The notes under the pieces are model-generated. The model was not told where the DNA came from. It worked only from the letters and a program-made list of their open reading frames with translations, and ran no database searches. Shown here in pieces: positions 11,854-39,791 of a stretch of DNA of 49,449 nucleotides. Position 1 is the first letter of the stretch; each line of letters begins with the position of its first letter. The position numbers were made by a program, and so were the translations under genes. The DNA is from Candidatus Kuenenia stuttgartensis (GTDB taxonomy: Bacteria > Planctomycetota > Planctomycetia > Pirellulales > UBA1268): assembly GCA_945890755.1 (NCBI GenBank), contig CAMDDA010000004.1, forward strand, positions 1-49,449. The letters are read 5' to 3'.

Positions 11854-12525
11854 ATGGCGAGTGTGATCTTCGAGGAACGGGTGGAGGTGCCGCTCGGCCT
11901 CACGGGACTCGCCGACTTTCGGCGGTGGTCCGTGTCTCCCGACTTTCCCGAGACGGGCCGCATCGACTTTCTCGCCGGTACTATCGAGGTCGATATGTCC
12001 CCGGAAGACATCTTCTGTCATGGCGTGCTCAAGGCCGAAGTGGCGGCCGTGCTCCAGCGGCGAATCAAGGACCACACGCTCGGGCTGCTGCTCATCGACT
12101 CGACGCGAGTCGTCTGCGAGCAGGCTCAGCTTTCAGTCGAACCGGACATCGTGTTCGTGTCGCACGCATCCCTGCGAGAGGGGCGTGTCCGGCTCGTGCC
12201 GAAGGCGTCGGGTGAGCCGGGACGGTTCGTGGAGATCGATGGGCCACCCGACATCGTGGTCGAGATCGTCAGCGACACGTCGGTCGAGAAGGACACTGTC
12301 CGGCTTCCGCAGGCCTACCATGCGGCAGGTGTGCGGGAGTTCTGGCTGCTCGACGCCCGCGTCCGGCCGGCGACGTTCCGGATCCAGCGGTGGACCCCCG
12401 CCGGCTTCGTGCCGGTCGCCGGCGTGGAGGGCCGGCAGTGGTCCGAGCCGCTCGGCTGTGGCTACCGCCTCGAGAGCCGCGGGAACTCCCTCGGCGGCCA
12501 GGACTTTGACCTCGTCGAAGGGTGA
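11854..12525 (+). CDS. Uma2 family endonuclease (DUF820)
   Basis: RIDFLAGTIEVDMSPED, SVEPDIVFVS, PPDIVVEIVSDTSVEKDTVRLPQAYHAAGVREFWLLDAR. Confidence 0.85.
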   Translation: MASVIFEERVEVPLGLTGLADFRRWSVSPDFPETGRIDFLAGTIEVDMSPEDIFCHGVLKAEVAAVLQRRIKDHTLGLLLIDSTRVVCEQAQLSVEPDIVFVSHASLREGRVRLVPKASGEPGRFVEIDGPPDIVVEIVSDTSVEKDTVRLPQAYHAAGVREFWLLDARVRPATFRIQRWTPAGFVPVAGVEGRQWSEPLGCGYRLESRGNSLGGQDFDLVEG

Positions 12526-12584: not shown

Positions 12585-13346
12585 TCACGAGCGTCGCCGG
12601 CGATCTCGGCGCCGCACGAGGCTGTGTCGCCACCGCCATCCGGCCGCTGCGAATGCGGCGCCAACTAGTGCAAGAGTGGACGGTTCCGGCACGGCCGTGG
12701 CAGCCAGTCGATCGACACCGTCGTTGTAGTTGGTGGAGTTGGTGATGCCCCAATTCAAGACGACGAGAAACGGGTCGCTCGGTTGGGCCGCAAACGACAT
12801 CGGATCGGTGCTCTCCAGTCTCGCCCACAGCCCGTACAAGCCGCTCTGATCAGGGTCGAGAATTTCCCAGACCACGTGGTGATGCGACGTGAACGACGCG
12901 AGGAGCGACGGGTTCACCCCGGTGATCCCGGAAGGGTTCTCGGCATCGGCGGCCGCGACGGTCGTGGTGCCGCCGATGCTGTCGATCACGAGGCTGGCGT
13001 TCGGTGTCGGAAGCGGAGCGGTCTCGTCGGTTTGGGGGTTCCAGTAGAGCAGCGGCGCGAGAAATCGAATATCGAGCGACGTACCGGATGGCAGGCTGGA
13101 AGCGCGAGTCCAGCCCGGTGTGCCGTCGTTGAGAATGAATCCGCTGTCATTGACGAAGAGTTCCTCTGTGTCGAAATTCCGATACACCTTGGGAGAGACC
13201 GTGATCTTTCCCGTGGCAGTGTCGTAGCCGACGAGAAAGGGGGTTCCGTGTCCGGCCGCATGCCGCGGCAGGCCCGCCGCGACCAGGAGGCACGACGCGG
13301 TGATCACGGGCAGGAACGACACTCTCGGCGCGAATACCTGTGGCAT
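12585..13346 (-). CDS. PEP-CTERM sorting domain protein with HG... N-terminus and SHHH motif
   Basis: Signal peptide; C-terminal AVPEPSTLALVGAAFAAAGWRWRHSLVRRRDRRRR; SFTSHHHVVWEILDPDQSGLYGLWARLES. Confidence 0.8.
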   Translation of the reverse strand: MPQVFAPRVSFLPVITASCLLVAAGLPRHAAGHGTPFLVGYDTATGKITVSPKVYRNFDTEELFVNDSGFILNDGTPGWTRASSLPSGTSLDIRFLAPLLYWNPQTDETAPLPTPNASLVIDSIGGTTTVAAADAENPSGITGVNPSLLASFTSHHHVVWEILDPDQSGLYGLWARLESTDPMSFAAQPSDPFLVVLNWGITNSTNYNDGVDRLAATAVPEPSTLALVGAAFAAAGWRWRHSLVRRRDRRRRS

Positions 13347-13427
13347 CGGTTCGATTCTCTTCAAGGGGTGACGGAGAAGGGCTGAATGGCTCGGGCGTGT
13401 TGTCTGGGAGGTCGCATCGCTTTTGAT

Positions 13428-14201
13428 TCATTGCATTCGAGGAAAGGCATCGGGCATGGCGAAGTTCGAATCCGTGGGTGATCGAACCGCTGTGACCCAC
13501 CCCTGCACGGTCTCGGCGGGAACGCACTCGACATGCCCATCGAGGCACAGGTAGTGGGCGTGGCCGCTGTGGAGGCGGTCGGTGGTGCCAGCCGCGGCAC
13601 CGCCCACCCCTACCGGCACGACCACTTCACCGGGATGGATTTCCAGGCGGATGCGTGACCAGATCCAGCCTGCCGTGCGTTGCTCGCGGGAGAAGTTCAT
13701 CGGGCTGAACCAATCGTTTGGATGGGCGTGGTCGTTCTCGGGAGCGGGGTCGCGGCGCGGGGAGACCTCGAACGCGAAGATCGTCCGCGATGTGGCGGTC
13801 ACCTGGCGCATTCGCGAAACTGCCCCGGGCACGTCCATCGTGAGATACGAACTGACCATGTAGCTGGTTGCCCGGTTCGCGAGCCGTTCGGCCGCCCGGG
13901 CATCACTTGGGCAGATCCGCACTGCATCGCAATCCTCCAGCCAGGGAGCCACCGTATAGACCCAGGACTGTGAGTTGCCTTGCGCATCCTGCTCGTGATC
14001 CGTTCGCGGAAACCGCCCTTGATGGGCGTCGGTGTAGCCGATCACTGCAAGCCCAAGCTGGCGCAGGTTGCTCGCACACTGCGTCCGGCGGGCAGCTGCG
14101 CGGGCAGACTGCACCACCGGAAGCAGCAACGCGACGAGCGTGCCGATGATCGCGATGACCACCAGCAGTTCCACAAGCGTGAAGGCTCGGGCGCGGATCA
14201 C
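13428..14201 (-). CDS. DUF1559 type IV pilin-like protein (H-X9-DG)
   Basis: [65 protein letters not shown] matches H-X9-DG. Confidence 0.88.
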
Positions 14202-14204
14202 CGG

Positions 14205-15131
14205 TCACGCCTTACGGGCTTGAGGCTGGTTGCGAACGTGTCGGAGGCGCCGCCGGGTGATCCAGTAGATCCCGGCGCTTCCGATCACCCCGAGCACAAC
14301 GGCGCTCGGCTCGGGCACTGGGGCTACCGTGACCGTGAGACCGTACGTCGGAAATCTGTTCCCTTCCGCACCGAACGTTTCGGTCTCGGTGAGCTGCGCC
14401 GCGTAATTCGCGCCGCCAACGAAGATGGAGTAGTCGCCGGGGGCGAGATTCCACAATGTCGTGGTGACGAATCCGTCAGCGTTCCCGTCTCCCACCAGCC
14501 CCGGTGTGGCGCCGAAGTTCGTGGACGACCCGTCGGCCGCATAGCCCGCGAAGCTGAAGCTCCGCAGCGAGTCGGAACCACTCGAGGCAGCCGGGTAGTC
14601 GGTGAGGCTGTTGCCGATCGACCACGCCCCGAGAGCATTGAGCGAGCCCTCCTTGCCCGAGCCGCCGAGGCCCGTGCCGGCCGACGTGCCGAACGTCGTG
14701 ATCAGCCACTCGACCGACAGGCTGGAGTGGTCATGCGCCAGGGGGCTCGACGTGTGCGAGAGCCCCGAGAACACCGAAAAGGCAGGCAGCAGCGTGTCAT
14801 GATTTCCGGTCTGCTGACCAGGCGCCGTGCCTGTCACGAGGTTCTGCCGCTGGGCGGTGATCGCGACGCTTTGCGTGCCGGTAAGCGTAAACCGAAAGGC
14901 CCGAAAGCGATGGCTGTCGCCCCAGTCGCCGTCGGTCGCATCGGCCCAGCCGAAGCTGCTTGAGACCGTCTGGTTGGTGATCGTCGAGCCCGACGTCGTG
15001 ATCGTGCCGAAGTTACGGCCGGAGTAGCTGATGTGGGCGAACGCCGGCGATGCGAAAACCGTGGCGAACGCCGCCGCGGCCGCCAGTGCAGCAGTCTGTC
15101 TGCAGAACAAAGAACCCGTCGAACGAATCAT
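14205..15131 (-). CDS. PEP-CTERM sorting domain protein, predicted mature N-terminus HISYSGRNFG
   Basis: Signal ...ASPAFA|HISYSGRNFG; C-terminal VPEPSAVVLGVIGSAGIYWITRRRLRHVR. Confidence 0.82.
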   Translation of the reverse strand: MIRSTGSLFCRQTAALAAAAAFATVFASPAFAHISYSGRNFGTITTSGSTITNQTVSSSFGWADATDGDWGDSHRFRAFRFTLTGTQSVAITAQRQNLVTGTAPGQQTGNHDTLLPAFSVFSGLSHTSSPLAHDHSSLSVEWLITTFGTSAGTGLGGSGKEGSLNALGAWSIGNSLTDYPAASSGSDSLRSFSFAGYAADGSSTNFGATPGLVGDGNADGFVTTTLWNLAPGDYSIFVGGANYAAQLTETETFGAEGNRFPTYGLTVTVAPVPEPSAVVLGVIGSAGIYWITRRRLRHVRNQPQARKA

Positions 15132-15300
15132 CTGAATCTCCTTGTGATTCCGTCGGTCCACGGCGCGGCCATGGGGATTGACGGCTGATCAGGCTGCGGT
15201 CCGATCCCGCGGGCAGACACGCTGTCGGCCGGCGGCGGAAACGCTTGGAACTGGTGAGACGCCATGACGCGGGGCCGTTCGGTCCCGCGGCTCGACCAGA

Positions 15301-16017
15301 TCAGGCCCTTGGTGGCGGCGCGTCGGGGGCGGATCGCACACCAAAGACGGCCGTATCGAGGAACACGGTGGTTTCGAAGGGCACGGCCGCAAACGTGAGG
15401 CTCACTGGTGGTGGCGGGAGCGAGCCGCCGACTGCGAGCCACTGCGTGAGGATGCCGCCGCAGGCGAGCATCGCCTGGAGCGTCACGGTGCGCATTCGCG
15501 AAGGAGACGGCGTGGGTTCGTCGGGGCTCGTAGGCAGAGAGGCGGGCTCGGAATCGTCGCCAGTGGGCTCGGCTGCCAGCGATTGGTAGTCGGCGCAGAC
15601 ATCGGGCTCATTCGCGAGAGTTCGGGACGGAACACCGTAATCGCTGCAGCAGGTCGGCTTCTTCGCGGCACAGCATCCGCCGGCCGGCGCTGTCGGGGCG
15701 GCATCGGCCGCGACCCGACGTTCGAGCGCGACCAGAACGGCCGGTTCGACGCTGTGGGCCTTGGCCCAGGCGAGCCGCTCGGCCGGCGTGTGGCAGCAGC
15801 AGTTGGCGAAGCACTGTTCGGCCGTCGCGCAGCCGCAAGGCTTGTCCATGCAGGGAAACGGCCGCGAGCGATCCTTGGCTGCGAGCCGCGTGTCGGCCAC
15901 CGCGTCACCGCGCGGCGCCAACATGCCCATGGGCAGCGGCAGGCCGCTGGCGAGGAGCGCATAGCCCACAACCATCAGCCATGTGGTCACCCGGCGCAGC
16001 CCTGTCAGCGTGTTCAT
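15301..16017 (-). CDS. Cys-rich membrane-anchored protein, copy A
   Basis: N-terminal TM; PFPCMDKPCGCATAEQCFANCCCHTPAERLAWAKAHSVEP; second cluster GGCCAAKKPTCCSD; C-terminal APDAPPPRA; paralog at 19757-20485. Confidence 0.75.
   Translation of the reverse strand: MNTLTGLRRVTTWLMVVGYALLASGLPLPMGMLAPRGDAVADTRLAAKDRSRPFPCMDKPCGCATAEQCFANCCCHTPAERLAWAKAHSVEPAVLVALERRVAADAAPTAPAGGCCAAKKPTCCSDYGVPSRTLANEPDVCADYQSLAAEPTGDDSEPASLPTSPDEPTPSPSRMRTVTLQAMLACGGILTQWLAVGGSLPPPPVSLTFAAVPFETTVFLDTAVFGVRSAPDAPPPRA
15413..15955. repeat. long direct repeat, copy A (partner about 19875-20430)
   Basis: e.g. agcgagccgccgactgcgagccactgcgtgaggatgccgccgcaggcgagcatcgcctggagcgtcacggtgcgcattcgcg occurs at both loci; boundaries approximate. 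Confidence 0.85.
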
Positions 16018-16090
16018 ACGGACTAGGCTACAACCCCGCCCAACCCCGGTCAAACGCCGGCCCGCCCGCAGCCTGCCTATCGCGGTGCCT

Positions 16091-17239
16091 TTAGTCGCGC
16101 CCTTGCGTTTCCTTGGCGGTGCACTCTCCGAGGAGTTTTTTGGCGTCCGAGTCCTCCGGGGCGATCGCCAGTGCCCGCCGGCAATGGGATTCCGCGGCCG
16201 TCCGATCCCCGGTTGCGAGCAGCGCCCTGGCCAGATCCATATGCCCCTTCACGAATTCGGGATGGGCGGCCACGGTAAACCGCATGAGGTCGATCGCGAC
16301 TGCCGGATCGCGGCCATACGCGAGCAGCCATGCGGCTGACATCGCCAAGCCGTGCTCCTCCATCATCAGTCGATCGTCCCCGGTCGTCTCAGCTAGGAGC
16401 GCCGGGTAGCGGGCAACAGCCGCCTCGATGCCGTCGCTGCGAATCATCTCGACGAGCCGCACGATCGTCCACGGCTTGGCGGGGTGGATGCGGCCACGCA
16501 GGATGACGACCCCCCGCGGATCGGGAGCGAGCAGCGTTTCCGCGTCGGCGCGAAAACCGACGAACGGATCGTACTCGATGTACGTGGCAACCCGTCGGGC
16601 TGCTTCCGGCCCCTTCAACCGCCAGACCGCGTGGAGCGCTCCGTCGATGCCGGCGGAGATGCCGGCGGCCGTGACGATTCTCCCAGTGTCGACGAACTTC
16701 GCATCCCCGTGGCACTTCGCCGCCGGTGCAATGAACTTCAGGAGGGCGACGTTGTCGTGGTGCGTGGTGACATCGAGCCCGTCGAGCAGTTGCAACTTGC
16801 CGAGAATCGAGGCACCGTTGCAGACCGAGAGCACCAGCCGCGCCGTGCTGGCTCGAGCGGCGATCCACTTCATCAGGTGCGGGTCGTCCATCGCCGCCTC
16901 GACGGCACCGCCCGGAATCACGAGCACGTCGGCTGCCGGGTTCTCGGCAACGTCGATCGGTGGCACGAGCCCGAGCCGACCGATGCTCTCGACTGGCGTC
17001 CGGGCTGATCCCACCCACGAGACGTCGAATAGCGGTGCTCCCTGCTCGTCGCGGGCGCGTGCGAACACCTCCGCCGGTCCGGCTGCGTCGAGCAGCTCGA
17101 CTCCCGGAAACAGCACCACCGCCACGCGAGTCACCTCGGCCGCGGGATCACGGCCCCAGGAGCGGTTCGGCGTGAGCACCGGCGTGACAACGAGGCAGAG
17201 CAACGGAAGCAGCAAGCGAAGGGAGGGTGTCGTGGTCAT
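16091..17239 (-). CDS. Secreted GATase1/DJ-1-PfpI-like domain fused to TPR-like C-terminus
   Basis: RVAVVLFPGVELLDAAGPAEVFARA; VLSVCNGASILGKLQLLDGLDVTTHHD; C-terminal GHMDLARALLATGDRTAAESHCRRALAIAPEDSDAKKLLGE. Confidence 0.75.
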   Translation of the reverse strand: MTTTPSLRLLLPLLCLVVTPVLTPNRSWGRDPAAEVTRVAVVLFPGVELLDAAGPAEVFARARDEQGAPLFDVSWVGSARTPVESIGRLGLVPPIDVAENPAADVLVIPGGAVEAAMDDPHLMKWIAARASTARLVLSVCNGASILGKLQLLDGLDVTTHHDNVALLKFIAPAAKCHGDAKFVDTGRIVTAAGISAGIDGALHAVWRLKGPEAARRVATYIEYDPFVGFRADAETLLAPDPRGVVILRGRIHPAKPWTIVRLVEMIRSDGIEAAVARYPALLAETTGDDRLMMEEHGLAMSAAWLLAYGRDPAVAIDLMRFTVAAHPEFVKGHMDLARALLATGDRTAAESHCRRALAIAPEDSDAKKLLGECTAKETQGRD

Positions 17240-17249
17240 GGCTGGTGCC

Positions 17250-17699
17250 TTAGCGAGACGGTCGGGATGTCAGGGAGAGTGTTCCGATATCGGGGTCGTT
17301 CGGATTGATGGTCACCGTCAGCGTGGATCGGTCCGGATCGGCGTACCTGCCGAACAGCCGATCGAACGGCATTCCACCGCTGGGAGGCGTGTCGAGCCAA
17401 TAGACGACGAGGCGGTAGGTGCCCGCCGAGACGCCGGCATCGGACCCCGGCGCCGCCGACGTGAACCGTCCATCGGAACCGGTGATGAATGCGGGGGGTG
17501 ATCCTCCGGGCGGATCGACGGCCACGAACCGCACGGTCACACCGGCAGTCGGTTTTCCATCGACAAGGATCGTGCCGGTGACCGGCAACACGGGAGGCCC
17601 GGATGGGGGCGGTGCGTGCTGGCACCCGCCAAGACTGACGAGCAGCGCGATCACGCCGAGGGTCGGGGCACGGTCACGATTCCCGGCGTGAAGGCTCAT
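17250..17699 (-). CDS. carboxypeptidase-regulatory-like lipoprotein
   Basis: Lipobox LLVSLGGCQ; VTGTILVDGKPTAGVTVRFVAVDPPGG...TGSDGRFTSAA...AGTYRLVVYW. Confidence 0.75.
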   Translation of the reverse strand: MSLHAGNRDRAPTLGVIALLVSLGGCQHAPPPSGPPVLPVTGTILVDGKPTAGVTVRFVAVDPPGGSPPAFITGSDGRFTSAAPGSDAGVSAGTYRLVVYWLDTPPSGGMPFDRLFGRYADPDRSTLTVTINPNDPDIGTLSLTSRPSR

Positions 17700-18679
17700 G
17701 GCGAATCCCCGGGACGCTCCCCGCGCGACCGTGACACATAGGCGTACAACACCCGCGCATCAATTGCATCCTGCAAGAACCGCACTCCGCCATCGAGGCA
17801 CAGGGCATTCGCACCTCCGGTGTGAAAGCCATAGACGCCCTGATGATTGCTGCAGTTCACGTTGCACGGGCCGAGGCCCGATGGCGCCCACGTCGCGCCC
17901 CCCGCCTCGTAGGACAGCACCCAGTTGCAGCCCTGGCCCGCCCACGGTGCCCAGGTGGCGGCGGTGCTTGGATTCGCCTCGGTCTGCCGGCCCATCACCC
18001 ACCGGGCGGTCATCCCGGCCCGCTCGTGAAAGGTGATCGTGACGGAGGTGCCATCGGTCGTGTCGCGCAGGCGTGGCTGCCGGAAGATCGCCGTGCCGGT
18101 GAATAAGCCACTGCCATCCTCCGGAAATGGCGACATCGCCCCGACGGCCCAGGGATCCCGAAGGAACGGAGTCGCCGGGACTGCGAACGGTGCCCCCCAG
18201 CTATACACGGCCGTGAAGTCCGTTACGGCCGCCGTGAGATTCCCGTCCACTGGAACCCCCAGCGACTTCCGGACGCCCTGCACCCGTGCGGACGCAGGCG
18301 ACGACGGACAGCGGAACGTGGGGATGACCGTGTTCACCGCTGGCTGATTGCCGGCCGACGTCCAATCGTCCCGCTGAAGATAGCGATCGGCTGTGCTCCG
18401 CTCCTCGAGATACGGAAGGAGGCGTGTGAAGCTGCTGCCGGCCGGCCCGGCGGTGTTGTATGGGCCGCCGTAGGTCGCCGCCGGCAGGAGTTGCCGTGCA
18501 TTCTCGTGGAGCGACACGGCCAGGCCGATCTGCCGCAGGTTGCTCTGGCAGGCCAGCCGCCGCGCGATCTCCCGGGCCTGCTGCACCGCGGGGATGAGCA
18601 GGGCCACGAGCGTGCCGATGATCGCCAGAACGACGAGCAACTCGACCAACGTAAAGCCGAGTTGCCCGCCGTTCCGCAT
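17696..18679 (-). CDS. DUF1559 type IV pilin-like protein (H-X9-DG)
   Basis: [73 protein letters not shown]. Confidence 0.9.
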   Translation of the reverse strand: MRNGGQLGFTLVELLVVLAIIGTLVALLIPAVQQAREIARRLACQSNLRQIGLAVSLHENARQLLPAATYGGPYNTAGPAGSSFTRLLPYLEERSTADRYLQRDDWTSAGNQPAVNTVIPTFRCPSSPASARVQGVRKSLGVPVDGNLTAAVTDFTAVYSWGAPFAVPATPFLRDPWAVGAMSPFPEDGSGLFTGTAIFRQPRLRDTTDGTSVTITFHERAGMTARWVMGRQTEANPSTAATWAPWAGQGCNWVLSYEAGGATWAPSGLGPCNVNCSNHQGVYGFHTGGANALCLDGGVRFLQDAIDARVLYAYVSRSRGERPGDSP

Positions 18680-18722
18680 CGATCGTCTTCTCCGCCTACG
18701 CGGACACGGACGCGACATACGA

Positions 18723-19535
18723 TCACGCCGCCGAAAGGCGAGCGATCCGCCGTGCGCGACGGCGGAGCAGCCAGCTAGACACGCCGCTCGCCGCGCCGAG
18801 CCCGGCCAACGTCATCGTTCCCGGCTCTGGCACCGTCGCCACCATCGAAAACGAGCCCACGTTCGCGCCGGCCGTGCCCCCGAAGGCGGTCGCCCACTCG
18901 GGGCTCAGCAGCAGCGTGCCCGTGATCGTGAGCGCCGACGCATCAGCTGCGAGGCTGCTCACGCCCAGATCGAAGGCGTTGAATCCGAAACCATAGTTGT
19001 TCACCAGCACGAGCCCGTCGCCTCCGCGGGTGGGATCCCGCCGCAGCGCGAAGTCGCCCCAGAGAAAGTTGCCGCCGCCAATGGCCGCATCGGCCGCGTT
19101 CATGGTCACGCCGTCGAATCCGATCTGCTCACCCCCCGACGTCACGAACCCGCTGTTCGTCGACGCCGTCCATGATCCAAGCACGTTGCTGGGATCGTAG
19201 TCGAGCGTGGACGCCTGGCGGTTGCGGCCAGTGGGATCCGTGACCGCGGTGCCGTTGACCGGGTGCAGCAGGTTCGTCGGCGTCGTAGGCGACCCCGGCG
19301 GTACCGGCACGGTCCCCGACTGGATCTGCGCCGCGGTCAGCGTGGCAGCCTGGTTGTCGAGCAGCCCGTAGAACCGGGTGTATGTCAGGAACGGATTGAT
19401 CGCCGCGATGTCGAACGTCATCGTGGCCGCACCCCCGGTGACTTGGCCCGCTCGCGCGACCCTTGCACCCCCGGGCATGAACGCCAAACCGAACAGCGCC
19501 GCCATACCCATAAATGAATACCGAATGCATCTCAT
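18723..19535 (-). CDS. PEP-CTERM sorting domain protein
   Basis: Signal peptide MRCIRYSFMGMAALFGLAFMPGGARVARA; C-terminal VPEPGTMTLAGLGAASGVSSWLLRRRARR. Confidence 0.8.
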   Translation of the reverse strand: MRCIRYSFMGMAALFGLAFMPGGARVARAGQVTGGAATMTFDIAAINPFLTYTRFYGLLDNQAATLTAAQIQSGTVPVPPGSPTTPTNLLHPVNGTAVTDPTGRNRQASTLDYDPSNVLGSWTASTNSGFVTSGGEQIGFDGVTMNAADAAIGGGNFLWGDFALRRDPTRGGDGLVLVNNYGFGFNAFDLGVSSLAADASALTITGTLLLSPEWATAFGGTAGANVGSFSMVATVPEPGTMTLAGLGAASGVSSWLLRRRARRIARLSAA

Positions 19536-19756
19536 CGTCGTTCTCCTGTGAAGAGCCCTCGTCGGAACACCGTTTCCGGGGCCGAGAGGGCCTTGGATCG
19601 GCACGCCACGCACGGCGGGCGGCGAAGCGCACGCGGGGCGCGGAGTGCGTTGTGGATACGCTCGACGCGCGGACGCATGCCCGCACGAACGCCGCACGTA
19701 TCACGGACGACAGGGGATCGCCGCGGGCAGAGTGGCCCACAGCGTGGCAACGCGAC

Positions 19757-20485
19757 TCACGCCCGAGGCGGCGGAGCGTCTGGCGCGTGCAGAACCGAGC
19801 CAGGGTGGTCGTCCGCCAGCACGATCCGATCGACCAGGGGGGGCAATGGACGGGCAGCTTCGACCTTGAGAGGCGGGAGCGAGCCGCCGACTGCGAGCCA
19901 CTGCGTGAGGATGCCGCCGCAGGCGAGCATCGCCTGGAGCGTCACGGTGCGCATTCGCGGAGGAGACTGCGTGGGTTCATCGGGGCTCGTAGGCAGAGAG
20001 GCCGGCTCGGAATCGTCGCCAGTGGGCTCGGCTGCCAGCGATTGGTAGTCGGCGCAGACATCGGGCTCATCCGCAAGAGTGCGGGGCGGATCGCCGCGAT
20101 CGCTGCAGCAGCTGGGTTTCCGCTTGGCCTTGGCGGCGCAGCATCCGCCGGCCGGCGCTGTCGGGGCGGCATCGGCCGCGACCCGACGTTCGAGTGCCAC
20201 GAGCACGGCCGGCTCGACGCTGTGGGCCTTGGCCCAGGCGAGCCGCTCGGCGGGCGTATGGCAGCAGCAGTTGGCGAAGCACTGCTCGGCCGTCGCGCAG
20301 CCGCACGGCTTGTCCATGCAGGGAAACGGCTGCGAGCGATCTTTGGCAGCCAGGTGCGTGTCGGCGACGCGGTCGCCGCGCGGCGCCAACATGCCCATGG
20401 GCAACGGCAGGCCGCTGGCGAGGATCGCATAGCCGGCGATCGCCAGCCAGGACGTCACCCGGAATCGTCGCATCCGCGCGTTCAT
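19757..20485 (-). CDS. Cys-rich membrane-anchored protein, copy B
   Basis: Core nearly identical to copy A (15301-16017); PFPCMDKPCGCATAEQCFANCCCHTPAERLAWAKAHSVEP; C-terminal HAPDAPPPRA. Confidence 0.75.
   Translation of the reverse strand: MNARMRRFRVTSWLAIAGYAILASGLPLPMGMLAPRGDRVADTHLAAKDRSQPFPCMDKPCGCATAEQCFANCCCHTPAERLAWAKAHSVEPAVLVALERRVAADAAPTAPAGGCCAAKAKRKPSCCSDRGDPPRTLADEPDVCADYQSLAAEPTGDDSEPASLPTSPDEPTQSPPRMRTVTLQAMLACGGILTQWLAVGGSLPPLKVEAARPLPPLVDRIVLADDHPGSVLHAPDAPPPRA
19875..20430. repeat. long direct repeat, copy B
   Basis: As copy A with few substitutions and a short insertion encoding AKRKPS. Confidence 0.85.
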
Positions 20486-29295: not shown

Positions 29296-30986
29296 TGGGA
29301 TATCTGATGTTTTACGTCGCCGTGATCGCTGCCTGCCTGCTCTGGTCGGCGACGTGCATTGCCGCGGCGGCCCGCACCGACCGCCTCTGGCTGCGGTGGC
29401 TCCTGATGGCGATCGCCGTGCTCGTGCCGCCGCTCGCCCTCGCGCCCTGGGTCGGGCTGACGGCGCTGCTGGCGTTCGGTGCACGGCTGCAGGTGAACTG
29501 GTTCGCCCCGACGGTCAGCGCGTGTCTTGCGTCCATCGTCGGTGGGCTATGGATCCGGGCGGCGGGCCTGTTGCGACGGCCTGGAGCGAGCGGCTTCGAG
29601 GCCGCGGCCTGGCCTGTCGTCGGTCTCGCCGCGATGTTCGTGATGGCGAAGGCGGTGGCCTTTGGCACGCTCTTGTTCATCGACAATGCCGTGGTCGCCG
29701 AGGGACGGGCGCTGCGGGTCGAGGCGGCCCAACTCCTGCAGGCGAACCTGCCGCCCAGACCCTCGGCCGACGATGACGCGGCACCGCTTTACCTGCGGGC
29801 CTTTGCAACGCTCGAGGCCGCGCAGGACACGGATGAAAACACGGCCGCAGCGAACGACGCTCTCCTGTCAAAGCCGCTCTCGGTGGACGTCTCTGCGGCG
29901 GAGCTGACCGGGTTCCTCGCGCGTCATGCCGATGTACTGGCGCTGGTGCGGCGGGCCGCCGATCGGTCCGGCTGCTGGTTCGTGCGCGACTGGTCGCGTC
30001 CATCGTTCGACCTGTCGCTGCCCGAGATGCAACAGATGCGGAAGGTAGCCGCGCTCCTCGTGATCGCCGCCCGTCACGAAGCCGCCGCTGGCGACGTTGC
30101 GACGGCACTCCGTGACGTTGCGCGGATCCGCCGTATCGCGATGCATGCTGCGGCGGAGCCGGTGCTCGTGTGCGGGCTCGTCGGCCAGGCGATCGACAGG
30201 CTGGCCCTCGAGACACTCGCCACCGTTCTGCCGATGGTGCAGCGACCGGACCTGCCGCTCTTCGACGAACCGGCGGTTCGCGACAGCATCGCGACGCCGC
30301 TGTCGTTTGAGCGGCACTTACTCGGTGAAGAGGCGTTCGGCCTCGCCACTCTGGCAGATCTGGCCGACGGACGAACGCATCTGTCCAAGTTGGCAGCGAT
30401 GGATGGTGCGGCCTCTTTGGAGTCGTCGTTCAGTGAGCCGCTCGCCGTCCTCTACCGGTGCTTCATGCTGCCGTCAGACCTGACGAGCTAAAGGGGCTTC
30501 ATGCGACGGTATCAGAGGCTGATCGGGTCGATGGCTGGAGCAACCCCCGGCGGCTTCGGTGACTCCATCAGCGTGGCCAAAGGGATCGAATCCGACATCG
30601 CCGTCCGTCGCGCGGGCCTGTTCACGGCGCTGATGACCCCGGCCATGTCAGGGGTCGTGAAGACGCAGGCAAAGGGTGAGGCCTTGCACCGCTCTGCCGA
30701 CGTGCTCGTGGCGGCGACGCGAAGGCGGCTGGTCATGGGTGCGCCGCCTGAGACCATCGAGGCACTCGTGCCGGGGGGCCTGCCGGCATTGCCCCGCGAT
30801 CCATTCACGGCCAGGGAACCGCTGATCGCGAAGCAGGACGGCGATGCCTGGGTCGTCTACTCGGTCGGTCCCGACGGCGAGGACGACGGCGGGCCACCGA
30901 CCGCGGGCGCCCAGCCGCCGGAGGGCAATGACGATGTCGGCCTGCGGTTGCAGGTGTCGGCCGGCACGCCATCCAATGGGCCGTAA
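29295..30986 (+). pseudogene. membrane protein gene interrupted by in-frame TAA at 30489-30491
   Basis: 29295..30491 and 30501..30986 are in the same frame; FMLPSDLTS*RGFMRRYQRLIGS reads through naturally; C-terminal YSVGPDGEDDGG. Confidence 0.6.
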
Positions 30987-31111
30987 GCCCATGCATTGCT
31001 AAGATTTACGCCGCGAAAGGAAGTCCCGGGAGGGTGCACGGGGCGAAATCCCGATATAGAGTGGAATGGTATCGGCCCGTTCGGTGCCCTCCCGCCTTCG
31101 CGAGGCCCGCC

Positions 31112-34100
31112 ATGCAGAACCGCTCGGCCCCCTCCATCGCCCGCTCCACCCACGGGCGTGGCTCCTTCCGCTTCCTGGCCGCCGGCCTCGCGCTCGGCCT
31201 GCTCGGGGCCGCCCGGGCCGTCGCCTCGCCCACGCCGGAGCAGATCGCATTTTTCGAGACGAAGATCCGGCCGGTGCTCGCCCAGCACTGCTACCAGTGC
31301 CATTCGGCCGAGGCCCTGCGGGCCGGCAAGCTCAAGGCGAGCCTGCTCGTGGACTCGCGGGCCGGCATGGCGAAGGGGGGCGAGAGCGGTGCGGCCGTGG
31401 TGCCCAACAACAAGGAAGAGAGCCTTCTGCTGGCGGCCCTCAAATACGACGGCTTCGAGATGCCCCCGGCGGGCAAGCTGCCGGACGAGGTGATCGCCGA
31501 CTTCGAGACCTGGATCGACATGGGTGCTCCCGACCCGCGGGACGAGCCGGCCGCCACGATCGACGAACGGACGATCGACGTGGAACAGGGACGGCAGCAC
31601 TGGTCCTATCGCCGCCTTGGGCCGGTGGAGGTGCCGGCGGTGACGAATGTGGCGTGGCCGCAGAACGACATCGACCGGTTCATTCTCGCCAAGCAGGAGG
31701 CGGCCGGGATCACGCCGGCCCCCGAAGCGTCCAAAGCCACGCTCGCACGGCGGGTGTTTTTCGATCTCACCGGCCTGCCGCCGAGTCCCGATGAGCTGCA
31801 GGCGTTCCTCGACGATGCCGCTCCCGATGCCTACGACAAACTCGTCGATCGGTTGCTCGCCAGCCCGCGGTTCGGCGAGCGGTGGGCCCGCCACTGGCTC
31901 GACACGGTGCGATTCGGCGAGAGCAGCGGCTATGAGTTCGACGGCGATCGGCCCGGCGCCCATCACTACCGCGATTGGGTGATCAAGGCCCTCAACGCCG
32001 ATCTGCCGTACGACGAGTTCCTGCGGATGCAGGTGGCGGGCGACCTGATCAAGCCCGGCGACTACGAGGCGACGGCCGCCACCGGGTTTCTGGTGGCTGG
32101 TCCGTATCCGGGGCAGGTGACGGCCAAGACGGTCGAGCCGATCCGTTACGACCAGCTCGACGACATGGTGGCCACGCTCGGGTCGAGCGTGCTGGGCATG
32201 ACGATCGGCTGCGCCCGCTGCCACGACCACAAGTACGACCCGATCGGTCACCGCGACTACTACGCGATGATCGCCTGTCTCGGAAAGGCCGTGCAGCGAG
32301 ATGCCGACATCGACCCCGATCCGATGACGACGAAGCAGAAGCGGGATGCCTGGCTTGTCGAGCGGGCGCCGGTCGCGGCTGTGGCCGAGCGGTTCCGTCG
32401 CGAAGAGCTTCCTGGCCAGCTGGCCCGCTGGCTCGCCACCGACGCGGCGACCCAGCAGGCGGCGGGCTGGCTGACGCTCGATCCGCAGACGGTCAAAGCC
32501 ACGAAGGCGACACTCGTGGAGGAGGCCGGCGATGCCGTGTCGGCGTCCGGGAAGCTCGAGTCCAACGACACCTACGTGCTCACGTTCCGCACGCACCAGC
32601 GGGATGTCGCGGGCCTGCGGCTCGACGCGTTGCCGAGCCCATCGGCCCCCGGTGGCGGTCCCGGCACGGGCAAGGACGGCGGGTTCCGGCTCTCGACCGT
32701 GAAGGTGACGGCCACGCCGCTCGTGGCTGCTCCCGACCGCAAGCCGGTGACGCCGAAGCTGGCTGCTGTCGCGACCACGTTCGAAGACACGGGATTCGAG
32801 TTCGCCAAGGCCCTCGACGGCGACGCCGCCACGGGCTGGTCGACGGCCGGCCAGCCGGGCAAGGACCAGACTGCCGTCATGGCCTTCGACAAGCCGGTCG
32901 GGTTCGACGGCGGAACACTGCTCACGGTGGAGCTGAAGTTCGAGGGCAGCGGCAACGGCCTCGCGAGGATGCGGCTGGCAGCTGCCGCCGATCCGGCCGG
33001 CGTCGGCCTCGCCGGGGCGTCGGCTCCGCAGGCGGCCCGCGAGGTCGCCGCGATTCTGGAACGGGCCCGTAGCGGTGGCCGCGATCCTGCGACGGGCCCG
33101 GATGCTGCGGAACTGCACCGCTGGTTCAGTCGCGTGAACGAACCGTCGGCCATGGTGCAGGCCGCCCTCGACGCGATCGACGCCAAGGAGCCGAAGCCTG
33201 ATCTGCTCAAGGTGTATGCGACCACGAACGGTGGCTGGGTGATCACGGGCAACTCGCAGGCGGTGCGGAGCGGCAGCCAGGATGTGTTCGTGCTCGCCCG
33301 CGGCGAGGTGGGCCGCAAGAAGGGCAAGGCGGTGCCCGGATTCGTGCTGGCGGCGATGGCGGCGGATGGCGCCGAACAGAAACTGCTTTCGGGGCCTGAC
33401 GCCAAGCCACTGCCCGATTCCCGGCTCGGACTGGCGGCCTTCCTCACCGATGTGTCGCAGGGCTCGGGCCCCCTGGCCGCCCGCGTGATCGTGAACCGGC
33501 TCTGGCACCACCACTTCGGCCGTGGGATCGTGGCCACGCCCAACGATCTCGGCACGCAGGCGGACCCGGCCACGCACCCCGAACTGCTCGAATGGCTCGC
33601 CAATCGGATCGTCGAGAATCACTGGAGCCTGAAGAGCATTCATCGGCTGATCGTGACGAGCGCCACCTACCGGCAGTCGGGGGACGTCAGCGAGGCGGGG
33701 CGATCGAAGGATCCCGACAACAAACTGCTCTGGCACCGCAAGCCGACGCGTCTCGAGGGCGAATCGATTCGTGACGCGCTGCTCGCGGCTTCCGGCACGC
33801 TCGACCCCAAGATGTATGGACGGGCCGGGCTCGACGTGAAGGTGCCCCGGCGGAGCGTCTATCTCAACGTGAAGCGCAGCGAACCGATCGGCTTTCTGCA
33901 GGTCTTCGATCAGCCGGAGCCGGTGCAGCCCGTGGGTGCGCGGGGCGTGGCCACCGTGCCGACGCAGGCCCTGGCGATGATGAACGCGCCGTTTGTGCGT
34001 TCCGCCGCGGAGAACCTCGCGAAGCGGGCTCGCACGTCGCTGGCCATTCCGCCGGCCGACCCATCAGGGCCGGCGGCGATCGACTTCTGCTTCACGGCCG

Positions 34101-34261
34101 CACTCGCACGGCAGCCGAGTGACGTGGAGCGGGCGCGATTCGCCCAGTTACTTGCGGCCCGCGAGCAGGCGAACGGAGCCGACGCGGCGGGCAGGCAGGC
34201 GGCGCTCGCCGACGTGTGTCATTTGATCTTCTGTTTGAACGAGTTCGTGTACGTGGATTGA
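31112..34261 (+). CDS. PSCyt1/PSCyt2 (DUF1549)/PSD1 (DUF1553) planctomycete cytochrome protein
   Basis: HCYQCHSAEALRAGKLKASLLVDSRAGM; RVFFDLTGLPPSPDELQAFLDD; RHWLDTVRFGESSGYEFDGDRPGAHHYRDWVI; GCARCHDHKYDPI. Confidence 0.92.
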   Translation: MQNRSAPSIARSTHGRGSFRFLAAGLALGLLGAARAVASPTPEQIAFFETKIRPVLAQHCYQCHSAEALRAGKLKASLLVDSRAGMAKGGESGAAVVPNNKEESLLLAALKYDGFEMPPAGKLPDEVIADFETWIDMGAPDPRDEPAATIDERTIDVEQGRQHWSYRRLGPVEVPAVTNVAWPQNDIDRFILAKQEAAGITPAPEASKATLARRVFFDLTGLPPSPDELQAFLDDAAPDAYDKLVDRLLASPRFGERWARHWLDTVRFGESSGYEFDGDRPGAHHYRDWVIKALNADLPYDEFLRMQVAGDLIKPGDYEATAATGFLVAGPYPGQVTAKTVEPIRYDQLDDMVATLGSSVLGMTIGCARCHDHKYDPIGHRDYYAMIACLGKAVQRDADIDPDPMTTKQKRDAWLVERAPVAAVAERFRREELPGQLARWLATDAATQQAAGWLTLDPQTVKATKATLVEEAGDAVSASGKLESNDTYVLTFRTHQRDVAGLRLDALPSPSAPGGGPGTGKDGGFRLSTVKVTATPLVAAPDRKPVTPKLAAVATTFEDTGFEFAKALDGDAATGWSTAGQPGKDQTAVMAFDKPVGFDGGTLLTVELKFEGSGNGLARMRLAAAADPAGVGLAGASAPQAAREVAAILERARSGGRDPATGPDAAELHRWFSRVNEPSAMVQAALDAIDAKEPKPDLLKVYATTNGGWVITGNSQAVRSGSQDVFVLARGEVGRKKGKAVPGFVLAAMAADGAEQKLLSGPDAKPLPDSRLGLAAFLTDVSQGSGPLAARVIVNRLWHHHFGRGIVATPNDLGTQADPATHPELLEWLANRIVENHWSLKSIHRLIVTSATYRQSGDVSEAGRSKDPDNKLLWHRKPTRLEGESIRDALLAASGTLDPKMYGRAGLDVKVPRRSVYLNVKRSEPIGFLQVFDQPEPVQPVGARGVATVPTQALAMMNAPFVRSAAENLAKRARTSLAIPPADPSGPAAIDFCFTAALARQPSDVERARFAQLLAAREQANGADAAGRQAALADVCHLIFCLNEFVYVD

Positions 34262-34389
34262 GTGGATGCGGATCCCGCAGGCGATGGCCGATCCCCCGGC
34301 TTGCGCCTGGGGGCTTGTATGGGAAAACGGTTGGTGGCCATGGTTCGAGGGTGCGAGAGGCCGGCGCCGACACGATGTGGAGAACAGAG

Positions 34390-35844
34390 ATGAGCGGCAT
34401 GTCATCAAAAATCGGTGAACTCCTGCTGCCGGCCCGCCGGTCGTTCCTCCGTGACGCCGGGCTGGGCTTCGGCGGCCTGGCGCTCGCGTCGCTGCTCGGC
34501 GAGGAGTCCCGGGCGACCGCGGCCAGTGGAGCCTCCGCCGTCCGCACGCTCCCCCATCACCCGCCGAAGGCCAAGCGGGTGATCTGGCTGTTCATGACGG
34601 GGGCCCCGTCGCAGGTCGACACGTGGGACTACAAGCCCGAACTCCAGGCCCGCAGCGGCGAGCCCCTGCCGGGGGCCGACAGCCAGGTGGGGTTCTTCCA
34701 GACGAGTGGCAAGTGCCTTGCCAGCCCGTTCAAGTGGGCGCAGCACGGCAATTCGGGCACGTGGGTGAGCGACCTGTTTCCGCACCTCTCGAAGCACGTG
34801 GACGACATGTGCTTCATCCATTCGATGCACCTCCGGGCCAACAACCACGCCCCGGCCGCGATGGAGCTGATGAGCGGGTTCAGCAGGCCGGGCATGCCGA
34901 GCATGGGCGCCTGGCTCGACTACGGCCTCGGGAGCATGAATCATGACCTGCCGAGCTTCGTGGTGATGCACGAGCGGAAGCCGCGCGGCGACGACCAGAT
35001 CTGGTCGGCCGGTTTCCTGCCGAAGAGCCATCAGGCCCTGGCCATCGACGCCCGGCGGCCGGTGGCGATCGACAACCTGGCCCTCCGCACGGGGCACACG
35101 CTCGACTCGCAGCGGGCGCAACTCGATCTCCTGGCCGCGCTCAATGCCGAGCATGCGGCGCTTCGGCCGACGCAGGCCGACCTCGCCGCCCGCATCTCGA
35201 GCTTCGAGCTGGCCTACCGCATGCAGACCGCTGCCCCGGAGGCGATCGACCTCTCACAGGAGTCGAAGCTCACGCACGAGCTTTACGGCACGGAGGATCC
35301 AAAGTGCAAGGTGTTCGCCAGACAGTGCCTCACGGCGCGGCGGCTCCTGGAGCGGGGCGTGCGGTTCATCCAGATCTTCGCGGGCAAGCACGTCGGCGGC
35401 GATGGAGCCGTCGATGACGTACCGTGGGACGGCCACAGCAACATCGAGGTCAATCACCGCGAGTGTGGTCTGGCGACGGATCGGCCGGCGGCGGCGCTTC
35501 TGGCCGACCTCAAGGCTCGCGGTCTGCTCGAGGACACGCTCGTCATCTGGGGGGGCGAGTTCGGCCGCACGAGCGACTCGCAGGGGGGCAAGGGCCGCGA
35601 CCACAACCCCGGCGGGTTCACGATCTGGATGGCCGGCGGCGGCGTGAAGCCCGGCTACCACTACGGGTCGACCGACCCGTTTGGCTACAAGGCGGTGGAG
35701 AACAAAGTGCACGTCAACGACCTGCACGCCACGCTCCTGCACCTGCTCGGCATCGACCACGAGCAGCTCACCTACCGCCACAATGGCCGCAACTTCCGGC
35801 TCACCGACGTGGGCGGCCACGTGATCCACGACCTGATCGCGTGA
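34390..35844 (+). CDS. DUF1501 domain protein (Tat-like signal)
   Basis: LPARRSFLRDAGLGFGGLALASLL; VIWLFMTGAPSQVDTWDYKPEL; VIWGGEFGRTSDSQGGKGRDHNPGGFTIWMAGGGVKPG. Confidence 0.92.
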   Translation: MSGMSSKIGELLLPARRSFLRDAGLGFGGLALASLLGEESRATAASGASAVRTLPHHPPKAKRVIWLFMTGAPSQVDTWDYKPELQARSGEPLPGADSQVGFFQTSGKCLASPFKWAQHGNSGTWVSDLFPHLSKHVDDMCFIHSMHLRANNHAPAAMELMSGFSRPGMPSMGAWLDYGLGSMNHDLPSFVVMHERKPRGDDQIWSAGFLPKSHQALAIDARRPVAIDNLALRTGHTLDSQRAQLDLLAALNAEHAALRPTQADLAARISSFELAYRMQTAAPEAIDLSQESKLTHELYGTEDPKCKVFARQCLTARRLLERGVRFIQIFAGKHVGGDGAVDDVPWDGHSNIEVNHRECGLATDRPAAALLADLKARGLLEDTLVIWGGEFGRTSDSQGGKGRDHNPGGFTIWMAGGGVKPGYHYGSTDPFGYKAVENKVHVNDLHATLLHLLGIDHEQLTYRHNGRNFRLTDVGGHVIHDLIA

Positions 35845-35901
35845 GGAGCCCGGTCACGCCACACGCAGCCCGGTCAGGCCGGACCGGAAGAGAAGCCAGC
35901 C

Positions 35902-35916
35902 TGTCACGGCGTGACA
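35902..35916. repeat. hairpin TGTCACG-G-CGTGACA at DUF3500 stop
   Basis: 13-bp GTCACGGCGTGAC core is the exact reverse complement of the core of 39728-39748. Confidence 0.5.
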
Positions 35917-36977
35917 CGGCCACCCGGCAGGTCGAAATCACCAGTCATGTCGCGCCACACGCAATGGATGTGGTTGGCGGGATTGCCCTCGGCGTCGGGC
36001 TGGACGTTCACGAACTCGATCAGGAACGTCGGCCCGGTCACGCGATAGGCATGGCCGATGCCCGGCTCGAGGCTGCCGAGCCAGGTGAAGCGGACGGCGG
36101 CCCAGCCCTTCGGCGCTTCCTCGATCAACCGCAGTCGCTCGGCGGCCACCTCGGCGGGCATCCAATTGCAATAGGCATCGACGAGCCGCCGGAGTGCCGC
36201 CTGCTGCTCTGCCGTGAGGTCGCCCCAGCGGATGCCGGTGGCTGGCTCCTGCGGCGGCTGCGGCTCACCCGCGGCGCGAATTTCCTTCGGCAGCTCGGCT
36301 GTCACTGCCTGCTCCCGCTGGGCAGTGGTCAGTGATCGCGCGAGTTCGAAGGCGAGCATCTCTTCATCGCGGAGCACGCGCAGGCCCCGCTCCGGCAGGC
36401 CGGTGAACGACGTCTTCACCTCCGCCGGGTTGGCTCCCATGAACTGTGGCGTGGAATCGACCACGGCCCCGTCGCGAATCGTGAAGTTGAGTGAGAGGTG
36501 ATGCCCCTCGACGGAGAGACTCCATGTGCCGCTGTCGGCGGGCGTGCCGAAGATCGTGAAGAAGTAACGTTTCGGGTCGCGGATGTTCTTCGCCCGCTCT
36601 CCCTCCAGTCGCCGCAGGATCTCCTCCAGGCTCATGATGACGAGCGACTTGTCATAGCCGGTCTGGGAGAGTGCCGAGCGGAGCAGCGTCAGGGCGGCCT
36701 GCTCCTGGGCCGGCGTCATGTCGCGGAGTTGCACCCCCTTCCGGGCGGCTTTCGGCACGAAGTGCCAGTCGGTGCGGGTCGCTTCGCCGAAGGCCCGCAC
36801 ACCGCCGGATTTCTGGTCGGCATCGAGCGTGTCGATCCAGGCGGCCGCGGCCTGCGAGAGCGACGCAGGCGATGACTGCTTCAACGCCGCGGCCCTCGTC
36901 GTGGCGACGGCCATTCCGATGACGGCTGTCGCTGCGAGGGCCGCCGTCAGCCAGCGGCGGTGAAGAACGTATGACAT
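35904..36977 (-). CDS. DUF3500 domain protein
   Basis: Signal peptide; YFFTIFGTPADSGTWSLSVEGHHLSLNFTIRDGAVVDSTPQFMGANPAEV; NHIHCVWRDMTGDFG-like end. Confidence 0.82.
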   Translation of the reverse strand: MSYVLHRRWLTAALAATAVIGMAVATTRAAALKQSSPASLSQAAAAWIDTLDADQKSGGVRAFGEATRTDWHFVPKAARKGVQLRDMTPAQEQAALTLLRSALSQTGYDKSLVIMSLEEILRRLEGERAKNIRDPKRYFFTIFGTPADSGTWSLSVEGHHLSLNFTIRDGAVVDSTPQFMGANPAEVKTSFTGLPERGLRVLRDEEMLAFELARSLTTAQREQAVTAELPKEIRAAGEPQPPQEPATGIRWGDLTAEQQAALRRLVDAYCNWMPAEVAAERLRLIEEAPKGWAAVRFTWLGSLEPGIGHAYRVTGPTFLIEFVNVQPDAEGNPANHIHCVWRDMTGDFDLPGGRVTP

Positions 36978-36998
36978 CGGAGGGCTCCGCGTGGAGAA

Positions 36999-37709
36999 TC
37001 AGTCGTGGTCCCGGGCGGGATCGCGATCGTGATGAGCCTGATCGACATGCACGTGCACGTCTGGGTGCGTCTGAAAATACCTCGTCCAGGCCTCGTCCGA
37101 CACCTCGGCACCATCGAGATAGAGATTCCAGAGGCCTGGCAGCCGGGCGACGGCATCGAGCCCCTCGTCACCGAGCGGAACGTCGATCAGATGCAGCGAC
37201 CGGAGATGCACAAGTTCGGCCACGGCGCGGCCAACGTCGGCGCCGGTGAGGTGCGGGCCGCCGAGCCGCAGGCTCCGCAGCCGGGGAAGCGCCGCGAGCG
37301 CACGGATCCCGGCCGGCGTGCAGGCCGCCTGCGGCACGTTGAGGTCGCGGAGCCTGGTACAGCGGGCGAGTTCTCTCACGCCGGAATCGGAAAGCGGTGA
37401 GTCGCGCAGGACGAGCCGTTCGATGTCGGGCAGGGTCGCGAGCAACCGGGCCCGGCCGTCGTCGGCCACGCCCGCCCGGAGGACGAGCTCCCGCAGTCCG
37501 ACGAGGCCGCGGAGCGATTCCCATTCGGCAGTGGTGAGCGGCTCCTCCGCCGTGATCCGCTTCGCCTCGCCGGCCCGCACGGCGGCCACCTGGGCGGAGA
37601 TCGCCGCGGCGGTGGGCGTCGTCGGTGCCCGACCATTGCCAGCCGGTGGTGATATCCCGCAACCGAGGCTCAAAACTGCTGCCAGCGGGAGGAGCGCAGC
37701 GGACCTCAT
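36999..37709 (-). CDS. leucine-rich-repeat lipoprotein with His-rich tail
   Basis: LSLGCGISPP lipobox; repeated LRSLRLGGPHLTGADVGRAVAELVHLRSLHLIDVPLGDEGLDAVARLPGLWNLYLDGAEV; tail HPDVHVHVDQAHHDRDPARDHD. Confidence 0.7.
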   Translation of the reverse strand: MRSAALLPLAAVLSLGCGISPPAGNGRAPTTPTAAAISAQVAAVRAGEAKRITAEEPLTTAEWESLRGLVGLRELVLRAGVADDGRARLLATLPDIERLVLRDSPLSDSGVRELARCTRLRDLNVPQAACTPAGIRALAALPRLRSLRLGGPHLTGADVGRAVAELVHLRSLHLIDVPLGDEGLDAVARLPGLWNLYLDGAEVSDEAWTRYFQTHPDVHVHVDQAHHDRDPARDHD

Positions 37710-38485
37710 GGCCGCCGCCGGCGGGCAGTGCCAAACGGTGCCGATCCGGGCGACTGATGGGCGGCACGATACTGCGAGGGTGTCTGGCCCATGATCCGGC
37801 GAAACGTCCTGGTGAAGTGAGCGTGGTCGTGGAAGCCGCAGGTGACGGCGACGGTCGCGATCGGATCATGCGTCTCCGCAAGCCGGCGGCACGCCGCCTC
37901 GACTCGCACCCGCAGAAAATACTGGCGAGGTGAGGTGTCGACCAGCCGACGGAAGAGCCGGTCAAAATGACTCGGCGACATCCCGGCGATCCGGGCCCAG
38001 GCATGACTCGACAGGTTTTCACCGTAACGCTCGTGCATTCGCTCGACGACGCGGGCCACCGGCTCGACGCCGCCGGGCCGCTCCCGCAGTTGCTCGACGC
38101 GACGCGACACACCGGCCAGACCGATCACGCGGCCGGCCTGGTCGTGGAGCGGCACCTTCGTCGTCATGACGAGCCGCGGCGACCCCTGTCGTGCCGGCGC
38201 GCTCTCGATCCGGTTGATGATCGGCCGGCCGGTGCGGATCACCTCGGCGTCGTCGCGGGCATACTCGTCGGCCCGGCGGCGGCCGAAGAAGTCGTGGTCG
38301 GTGCGGCCGACCGCATCGGCCTCGTGTGCCACGCCGCAGAACTCGCATCCCAGGCGGTTCAGAGCGATGAATCGGCCCCGGCGGTCCTTCACGAAGAACG
38401 ACACGTCCGAGAGGAGCGCGAACAGCTGCACGAGGTCGCCACCAGCGACCTGCGACCAGAAGGCTTGTTGAAGTCGGGCTGTCAC
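37706..38485 (-). CDS. AraC-family regulator with N-terminal PAS domain
   Basis: FFVKDRRGRFIALNRLGCEFCG PAS; RIAGMSPSHFDRLFRRLVDTSPRQYFLRVRVEAACRRLAET...VTCGFHDHAHFTRTFRRIMGQTPSQYR HTH; GTG start inferred. Confidence 0.85.
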   Translation of the reverse strand: MTARLQQAFWSQVAGGDLVQLFALLSDVSFFVKDRRGRFIALNRLGCEFCGVAHEADAVGRTDHDFFGRRRADEYARDDAEVIRTGRPIINRIESAPARQGSPRLVMTTKVPLHDQAGRVIGLAGVSRRVEQLRERPGGVEPVARVVERMHERYGENLSSHAWARIAGMSPSHFDRLFRRLVDTSPRQYFLRVRVEAACRRLAETHDPIATVAVTCGFHDHAHFTRTFRRIMGQTPSQYRAAHQSPGSAPFGTARRRRP

Positions 38486-38497
38486 AAGAGTGGATTG

Positions 38498-38524
38498 TGC
38501 AAGCTCTTGCCAGCGCGGTGCAAG
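38498..38524. promoter_or_regulatory. candidate AraC operator: direct repeat GTGCAAG x2 at 20 bp spacing
   Basis: gtgcaagctcttgccagcgcggtgcaag between divergent araC and P450 starts. Confidence 0.4.
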
Positions 38525-39777: not shown

Positions 39778-39791
39778 AACTTTGGCTGTCA

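Follow-up and report, generated by a model that had tools for sequence, protein, structure and literature searches.

The stretch of DNA analysed here, the window, comprises 49,449 nucleotides (nt) of contig CAMDDA010000004.1 from Candidatus Kuenenia stuttgartensis (assembly GCA_945890755.1) and carries two sets of genes for exported proteins on its minus strand. Each set begins with a gene for a cysteine-rich protein, called below the leader gene, followed by genes for a PEP-CTERM protein and a DUF1559 pseudopilin-like protein. The cysteine-rich protein is probably (at roughly 0.7) a cis-acting, exported nascent-chain sensor of a metal, most likely Cu(I), encoded by the first gene, or upstream open reading frame (ORF), of its operon. 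This reading is based on the protein family, the anatomy of its members, a fixed spacing within them, their position at the head of operons, the exchange of cargo genes at one locus and a covarying RNA in relatives.

The two gene sets

The first-pass annotation of this DNA had reported the order cysteine-rich protein, PEP-CTERM, DUF1559 twice on the minus strand, from 20485 to 17696 and from 16017 to 13428, and these coordinates are right. The lipoprotein-like ORF and the DJ-1/PfpI-TPR protein that it placed between the sets, and the second PEP-CTERM gene after the second set, are present according to the ORF list and Pfam, and the cysteine clusters are found in both copies (Table 1). What was described as a duplicated module, however, shares only the leader gene, copies A and B of which are identical at 534 of 591 nt (90%) in a DNA comparison of the window. 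The first PEP-CTERM proteins of operons A and B fall into separate sequence clusters, and the DNA likeness of the two DUF1559 genes is limited to about 143 nt at 71%, which is the pilin-type N-terminus. In the available assembly of the source genome there are two copies of the leader gene, both in the window.

Copy B consists of an N-terminal hydrophobic helix, the cluster CMDKPCGCATAEQCFANCCCHT, a CCxxK..CC motif, an invariant ACGG and the C-terminal sequence APDAPPPRA followed by the stop codon. The PEP-CTERM gene of operon B starts at the ATG of MRCIRYSF, which is preceded by AGGAG, while the DUF1559 gene behind it has a possible alternative start at 18679. A DJ-1/PfpI-TPR gene is also found behind the leader gene of locus L034. 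The leader genes of L039 and L050 are followed by relatives of the first PEP-CTERM-type protein of operon A, and L039 also has a relative of the second one.

Table 1. Features of the two gene sets and of the intergenic RNA element R1; positions refer to the window unless a locus is named
Feature	Position	Strand	Basis
Cysteine-rich leader protein, copy B, 242 amino acids (aa)	19757..20485	-	ORF list, family search, alignment A1, spacing
Intergenic region B, 221 nt, leader to PEP-CTERM gene	19536..19756	-	fold z = -1.8
PEP-CTERM protein, operon B	18723..19535	-	Pfam PF07589 above cut-off
DUF1559 pseudopilin-like protein, operon B	17696..18718	-	Pfam PF07596, E 7.5e-40, and N_methyl
Small lipoprotein-like ORF, operon B	17250..17699	-	ORF list; no Pfam family above cut-off
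DJ-1/PfpI domain and TPR protein, last gene of operon B	16091..17239	-	Pfam PF01965, E 2.1e-15
Cysteine-rich leader protein, copy A, 238 aa, C-terminal APDAPPPRA-stop	15301..16017	-	ORF list, DNA comparison
Intergenic region A, 169 nt, leader to next gene	15132..15300	-	fold z = -0.9, unexceptional
PEP-CTERM-type protein, operon A	14205..15131	-	PEP-CTERM match under Pfam cut-off
DUF1559 pseudopilin-like protein, operon A	13428..14201	-	Pfam PF07596, E 7.9e-16
Second PEP-CTERM protein, operon A	12585..13346	-	Pfam PF07589
R1, directly behind leader gene	L060 8359-8453; L061 8530-8627; L076 8603-8702; others		
R1, directly behind leader gene	L065 7156-7249	-	

The cysteine-rich protein family

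Neither window copy matches any model of Pfam or NCBIfam, and searches of 23 long members (E up to 10) and of 10 short members against these collections gave scattered chance hits only. An iterative profile search of fetched loci yielded about 70 matches. Relatives occur in 46 of 392 Planctomycetota genomes, and a scan of 84,980 species returned 24 loci, nearly all from records of planctomycetes and one from a bacterial metagenome-assembled genome. On the evidence of sequence, the protein represents an unnamed family that extends across the Planctomycetota. About 65 members were examined, and the count tests were made on 63 of them, 49 long and 14 short. Most members have 181–325 aa, while the anammox-like short forms have 118–163 aa.

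The invariant positions of alignment A1 are P55, C56, C61, G62, C63, C69, C73-C75, T77, C115, C189, G191 and the terminal pair P239 and P240. The AlphaFold2 model has a confident N-terminal helix (residues 2–23) and a confident cysteine-rich domain (residues about 48–106, pLDDT 87–95) with a low-confidence linker, and it matches no fold in the PDB at E up to 10. The N-terminal helix, a putative signal peptide, is of moderate hydrophobicity (Kyte-Doolittle, KD, 1.6–1.7). The protein had been called anchored, for which this single hydrophobic helix is the only sign. Two additional leader genes appear damaged: the second copy in a sister genome of the window (L032 8475-9150) has an in-frame stop ahead of the C-terminal module and represents a pseudogene or a sequencing error, and that of genome G048 (L063 7625-8311) is apparently split into two overlapping frames before the terminal proline motif.

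A Pro-Pro pair lies within the last 15 residues of all 63 members, compared with 20 of 495 control proteins (4%), and is followed by Arg or Lys in 47 of the 63 members as against five of the 495 controls. The terminal motif takes the form PPxxPPR, PPPR or similar. The invariant cysteine of the C-x-G motif is separated from the last Pro-Pro by 48–52 residues in each of the 49 long members (25 at 50 and 19 at 49; standard deviation 0.7), although the linker is only 18% identical, and in these same members the distance from the CCC cluster to the C-x-G cysteine varies from 64 to 171 residues (standard deviation 22). In all 14 short members, from the anammox-like family and others, a cysteine is placed 50–52 residues before the last Pro-Pro, so that the 48–52 range covers 63 of 63 members. 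A length that stays constant while the sequence drifts is what one would predict for a nascent chain whose reach is gauged by ribosome and translocon, and not for a folded partner protein.

Operon-head position and exchange of downstream genes

The gene after the leader lies on the same strand in 62 of 63 loci, across a gap with a median of 214 nt as opposed to 84 nt in controls. A same-strand upstream gene ends less than 60 nt away in 12 of 62 loci, copy A included. Among the 61 loci with a relative, 43 have a DUF1559-like gene within the first three downstream genes, which was judged to be beyond chance. DUF1559 genes make up 8.8% of the called genes in these loci. The families found behind the leader are DUF1559 (44 loci), DUF4198 (11), Phenol_MetA_deg barrels (10), PepSY_TM (9), PQQ_2 (9) and AhpC-TSA (5). 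Linkage of the leader gene with DUF1559 is conserved across the Planctomycetota, and that with PEP-CTERM genes is found near the clade of the window. The association between the cysteine-rich and DUF1559 genes noticed in the first-pass annotation is thus real and conserved, but its logic was misread: in place of one duplicated surface or periplasmic system, the protein has the anatomy of a cis-acting sensor or leader situated before different operons, and not that of a structural partner.

Sixteen loci, that of the window among them, have the leader gene beside the same epimerase-like gene, rsmE, or both, and represent an orthologous slot. Its cargo consists of DUF1559 alone, DUF1559 with DUF4198, DUF1559 with PepSY_TM, or PEP-CTERM with DUF1559, while the window holds two full sets; a few of the contigs compared end before the cargo is complete. 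The sister genome (L032) is 95.3% identical to window positions 19609-20461, over the leader gene and the first ~150 nt of intergenic region B, and the similarity is lost before the intergenic region ends, since the next gene there is a different one. The conserved unit is the leader gene together with part of the intergenic region, which is what a regulatory cassette would look like. No consistent Fur or Zur boxes were found upstream of the leader genes, where a de novo motif search turned up GTGGAGAG instead.

A Uma2-type gene (11854-12525, Pfam PF05685) lies between the operon and rsmE in the window and was not seen at this slot in other genomes. Elsewhere in the window (30857-44241), inverted similar stretches with 66–68% nt identity cover planctomycete cytochrome genes (PSCyt1/DUF1549/DUF1553) and their partner genes.

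RNA around the leader gene

In family f5 and two genomes of f2, the intergenic region contains a conserved element, R1, of 94 positions and 25 pairs, in which 96% of the cells are paired and whose covariation score was reached by none of 500 shuffles. Across 119 genomes of the class it was found 13 times, in 12 cases beside a leader gene; the remaining one is a weak match elsewhere. R1 lies apart from the start codon of the following gene, and conserved hairpins are present in relatives as well. A segment of R1 is complementary to GUGGAGAGYGAGC, located ~50–70 nt upstream of the leader start in the 5' untranslated region (5'UTR). The two arms covary between genomes, which are related and not all independent: the arms of one genome fit each other better than swapped arms do, with one in 20,000 permutations as good, and nine of ten inter-arm transitions leave a G-U pair in place in the sense RNA. 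The last 150 nt of the leader genes also contain more C than G (p about 1e-21). An Rfam search of six related loci and the window region gave no match, and no intrinsic terminators were predicted on the minus strand of the window intergenic regions. Other RNA features, or Rho, may serve the mechanism in the window.

A more elaborate arrangement is put forward tentatively for the genomes with R1. It would be a two-part metal switch, in which the ORF of a nascent-peptide sensor is enclosed by a long-range RNA helix formed by the 5'UTR sequence GUGGAGAGYGAGC and the R1 segment ~840–1,000 nt away, and in which pausing at the proline end and the leader-spanning helix would jointly decide expression of the downstream operon. 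The literature searched describes no arrest peptide combined with an RNA helix that spans its leader.

Probable metal specificity

The metal sensed would most likely be Cu(I), as an all-thiol site would suggest. In a survey of CutF-like proteins, members of the Cys type were tied to copper and His-only members to Ni or Co (PMC9973294). The metal handling proposed from the cysteine clusters and His-rich partners is strengthened by the PepSY_TM, DUF4198 and AhpC-TSA neighbours and by the histidine predicted at the mature N-terminus of many products. By a regex-based count over related loci that are not independent, a histidine directly follows the predicted signal-peptide cut in 24 of 81 products behind the leader and in 18 of 173 others (p = 2e-4).

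N-terminal histidine is a common copper ligand, as in CopC and in the histidine-brace sites of lytic polysaccharide monooxygenases (LPMO), and the excess is suggestive only. The products concerned span several unrelated families and include both PEP-CTERM proteins of operon A, whose predicted mature N-termini are HISYSG, straight after the signal peptide (SPAFA before the cut; 14205-15131), and HGTPF (HAAG before the cut; 12585-13346). HDTW, HTTVM and HGECC were also predicted behind leader genes, L083 5734-6534 being a further example of such a product. To judge from these predicted termini, the His-starting products are possibly histidine-brace copper proteins.

Proposed mechanism and alternatives

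In the proposed mechanism, the N-terminal hydrophobic helix would target the ribosome to the membrane during synthesis, and the thiol-rich domain, together with the cysteine ~50 residues from PPxxPPR, would encounter the metal after leaving the ribosome. Binding of the metal would then alter the length of a ribosome pause at the proline motif just before the stop codon, and the pause would decide transcription and translation of the downstream exported genes (DUF1559, PEP-CTERM, DUF4198, PepSY_TM) via Rho or the intergenic RNA. With two near-identical leader copies, the window would have two different exported-protein operons under one signal. The arrest, the identity of the metal, the direction of the response and the choice between Rho and RNA refolding are what we infer here.

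Several observations weigh against this interpretation. Many loci come from related genomes, so the counts given above do not represent independent events. In the window R1 is present at most as a trace, with a weak model match at 19610-19697 (E = 6.1), and the intergenic RNAs of the window fold only slightly better than shuffles. The excess of C over G is partly a by-product, because codons for Pro and Ala are C-rich. As to the known leader proteins discussed below, DUF2946 (Pfam PF11162), the family of CruR, has no match among the 23 long members searched at E up to 10 or the 10 short ones searched at E up to 1, and the terminal PPxxPPR or PPPR differs from the RAPP tested in CruR. Most members, and the window copies with 242 and 238 aa, exceed the 150-aa limit that defines the CutF-like set, and a search of 23 members at E up to 10 gave no match to an NCBIfam CopL model.

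Three other explanations were weighed. The cysteine-rich protein might be a periplasmic or membrane-bound metal-binding protein, a metallothionein-like store or chaperone in partnership with the DUF1559 and PEP-CTERM proteins, as the first-pass annotation implied. The confidently predicted, conserved cysteine-rich domain and the conserved linkage to exported proteins speak for such a role, which is nonetheless unlikely, as a purely structural function leaves unexplained the terminal Pro-Pro of every member, the 48–52-residue distance over an unconserved, low-confidence linker, and the long intergenic regions and constant leader before unrelated cargo. A protein that is both sensor and metal-binding protein would be compatible with these points. 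That the genes are merely an old block of exported-protein genes, kept together by ancestry and not regulated by the cysteine-rich gene, would suit the orthologous slot next to rsmE in related planctomycetes and the abundance of DUF1559 genes. This is very improbable given that the same gene order recurs at many unrelated positions, that the cargo changes while the leader stays, and that short relatives from a different family of the phylum stand at the start of other operons.

Least probable of all is that the gene is a small mobile cassette with the inverted repeats GTGGAGAGYGAGC acting like transposon ends. At about 12 loci such repeats sit close on either side of the gene, but as a rule there is one copy per genome at conserved positions, the window copies have no flanking repeats, and the right arm lies inside the covarying RNA fold. 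The occurrence of R1 beside the leader gene at 12 of its 13 places, the better fit of own over swapped arms and the G-U-keeping transitions also argue against mobility. A transposon or MITE-like cassette (miniature inverted-repeat transposable element) was therefore rejected, the terminal repeats being real, yet in essence single-copy and bound up with the leader gene; a further pattern, TGWGGAGAGYGAGC, added nothing beyond GTGGAGAGYGAGC.

If the nascent-chain sensor is correct, this type of metal sensing would extend to a new protein family in the Planctomycetota, and the geometry of a cysteine ~50 residues from a terminal proline motif recurs in a family without detectable sequence match to that of CruR. 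It would also give a regulatory handle on DUF1559 pseudopilins and PEP-CTERM proteins, two very common and poorly understood classes of planctomycete proteins, some of which would belong to a probable copper regulon.

Comparison with known systems

The control principle is already known from two Proteobacteria; for this protein family and these planctomycete operons it was not found in the literature searched. CruR of Bordetella pertussis (Bp2923, DUF2946; PMC9426467) is likewise encoded by the first gene of its operon, with an export signal and a cysteine metal site, both putative in the present family, a proline-containing motif a few residues before the stop codon, a C-over-G stretch in the gene and a long intergenic region behind it. 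In CruR, the CXXC motif is 45 residues from RAPP, a distance conserved within 1–2 residues and nearly the same as here, and the insertion of five residues strongly reduces copper control. Its arrest has been shown in vitro (PMC12992588). PepSY_TM and AhpC_TSA proteins are recurrent partners of CruR, and PepSY_TM genes are among the usual targets in both systems. The spaced cysteine motif of the present family is CxG in contrast to CXXC, the spacing agreeing as an analogue. Unlike CruR, the family has an extra cluster of seven cysteines, a longer protein in most members and DUF1559, PEP-CTERM or DUF4198 proteins as targets, and its role in copper control is a proposed one.

Five DUF2946 proteins of Planctomycetota have 49–52 residues from their first cysteine to the motif and 46–49 from the second. 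Planctomycetota DUF2946 proteins, some with SRAPP ends, precede metal- and pilin-type genes (e.g. L118 and L125). DUF2946-type proteins in other planctomycetes (L118, L119, L120, L121, L122, L125 and L126), mostly with SRAPP-like ends, adjoin pseudopilin genes or a gene of the ZnuA-like or Fur-like type, and are probably the products of additional leader ORFs for copper or zinc.

CutF of Rhodobacter capsulatus and the CutF-like proteins (PMC9973294) are exported leaders with a Cys motif and a Pro-rich C-terminus, which are encoded upstream of metal-homeostasis genes and followed by an intergenic stem-loop, and RNA structure before the next gene is found among relatives in the present family as well. 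Only the anammox-like short forms come near the CutF-like size limit. A stem-loop covering the Shine-Dalgarno site, as in CutF, is not evident here. In one family, base pairing connects the RNA to the 5'UTR over the full length of the leader gene. The paper on CutF (PMC9973294) also treats CopL of Xanthomonas and Stenotrophomonas, likewise a Cys-containing protein; it is encoded before copper genes and acts only in cis, as is proposed here. The RAPP-type arrest peptides ApdA, ApdP and SecM (PMC10987492, PMC12992588) share with the family a C-terminal Pro-containing motif in an exported leader protein and stall ribosomes with it. They monitor protein export, whereas here the cysteine domain points to a metal, and PPxxPPR would be the arresting motif. 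The best-supported placement is that of a family similar in principle to CruR and CutF and distinct from DUF2946.

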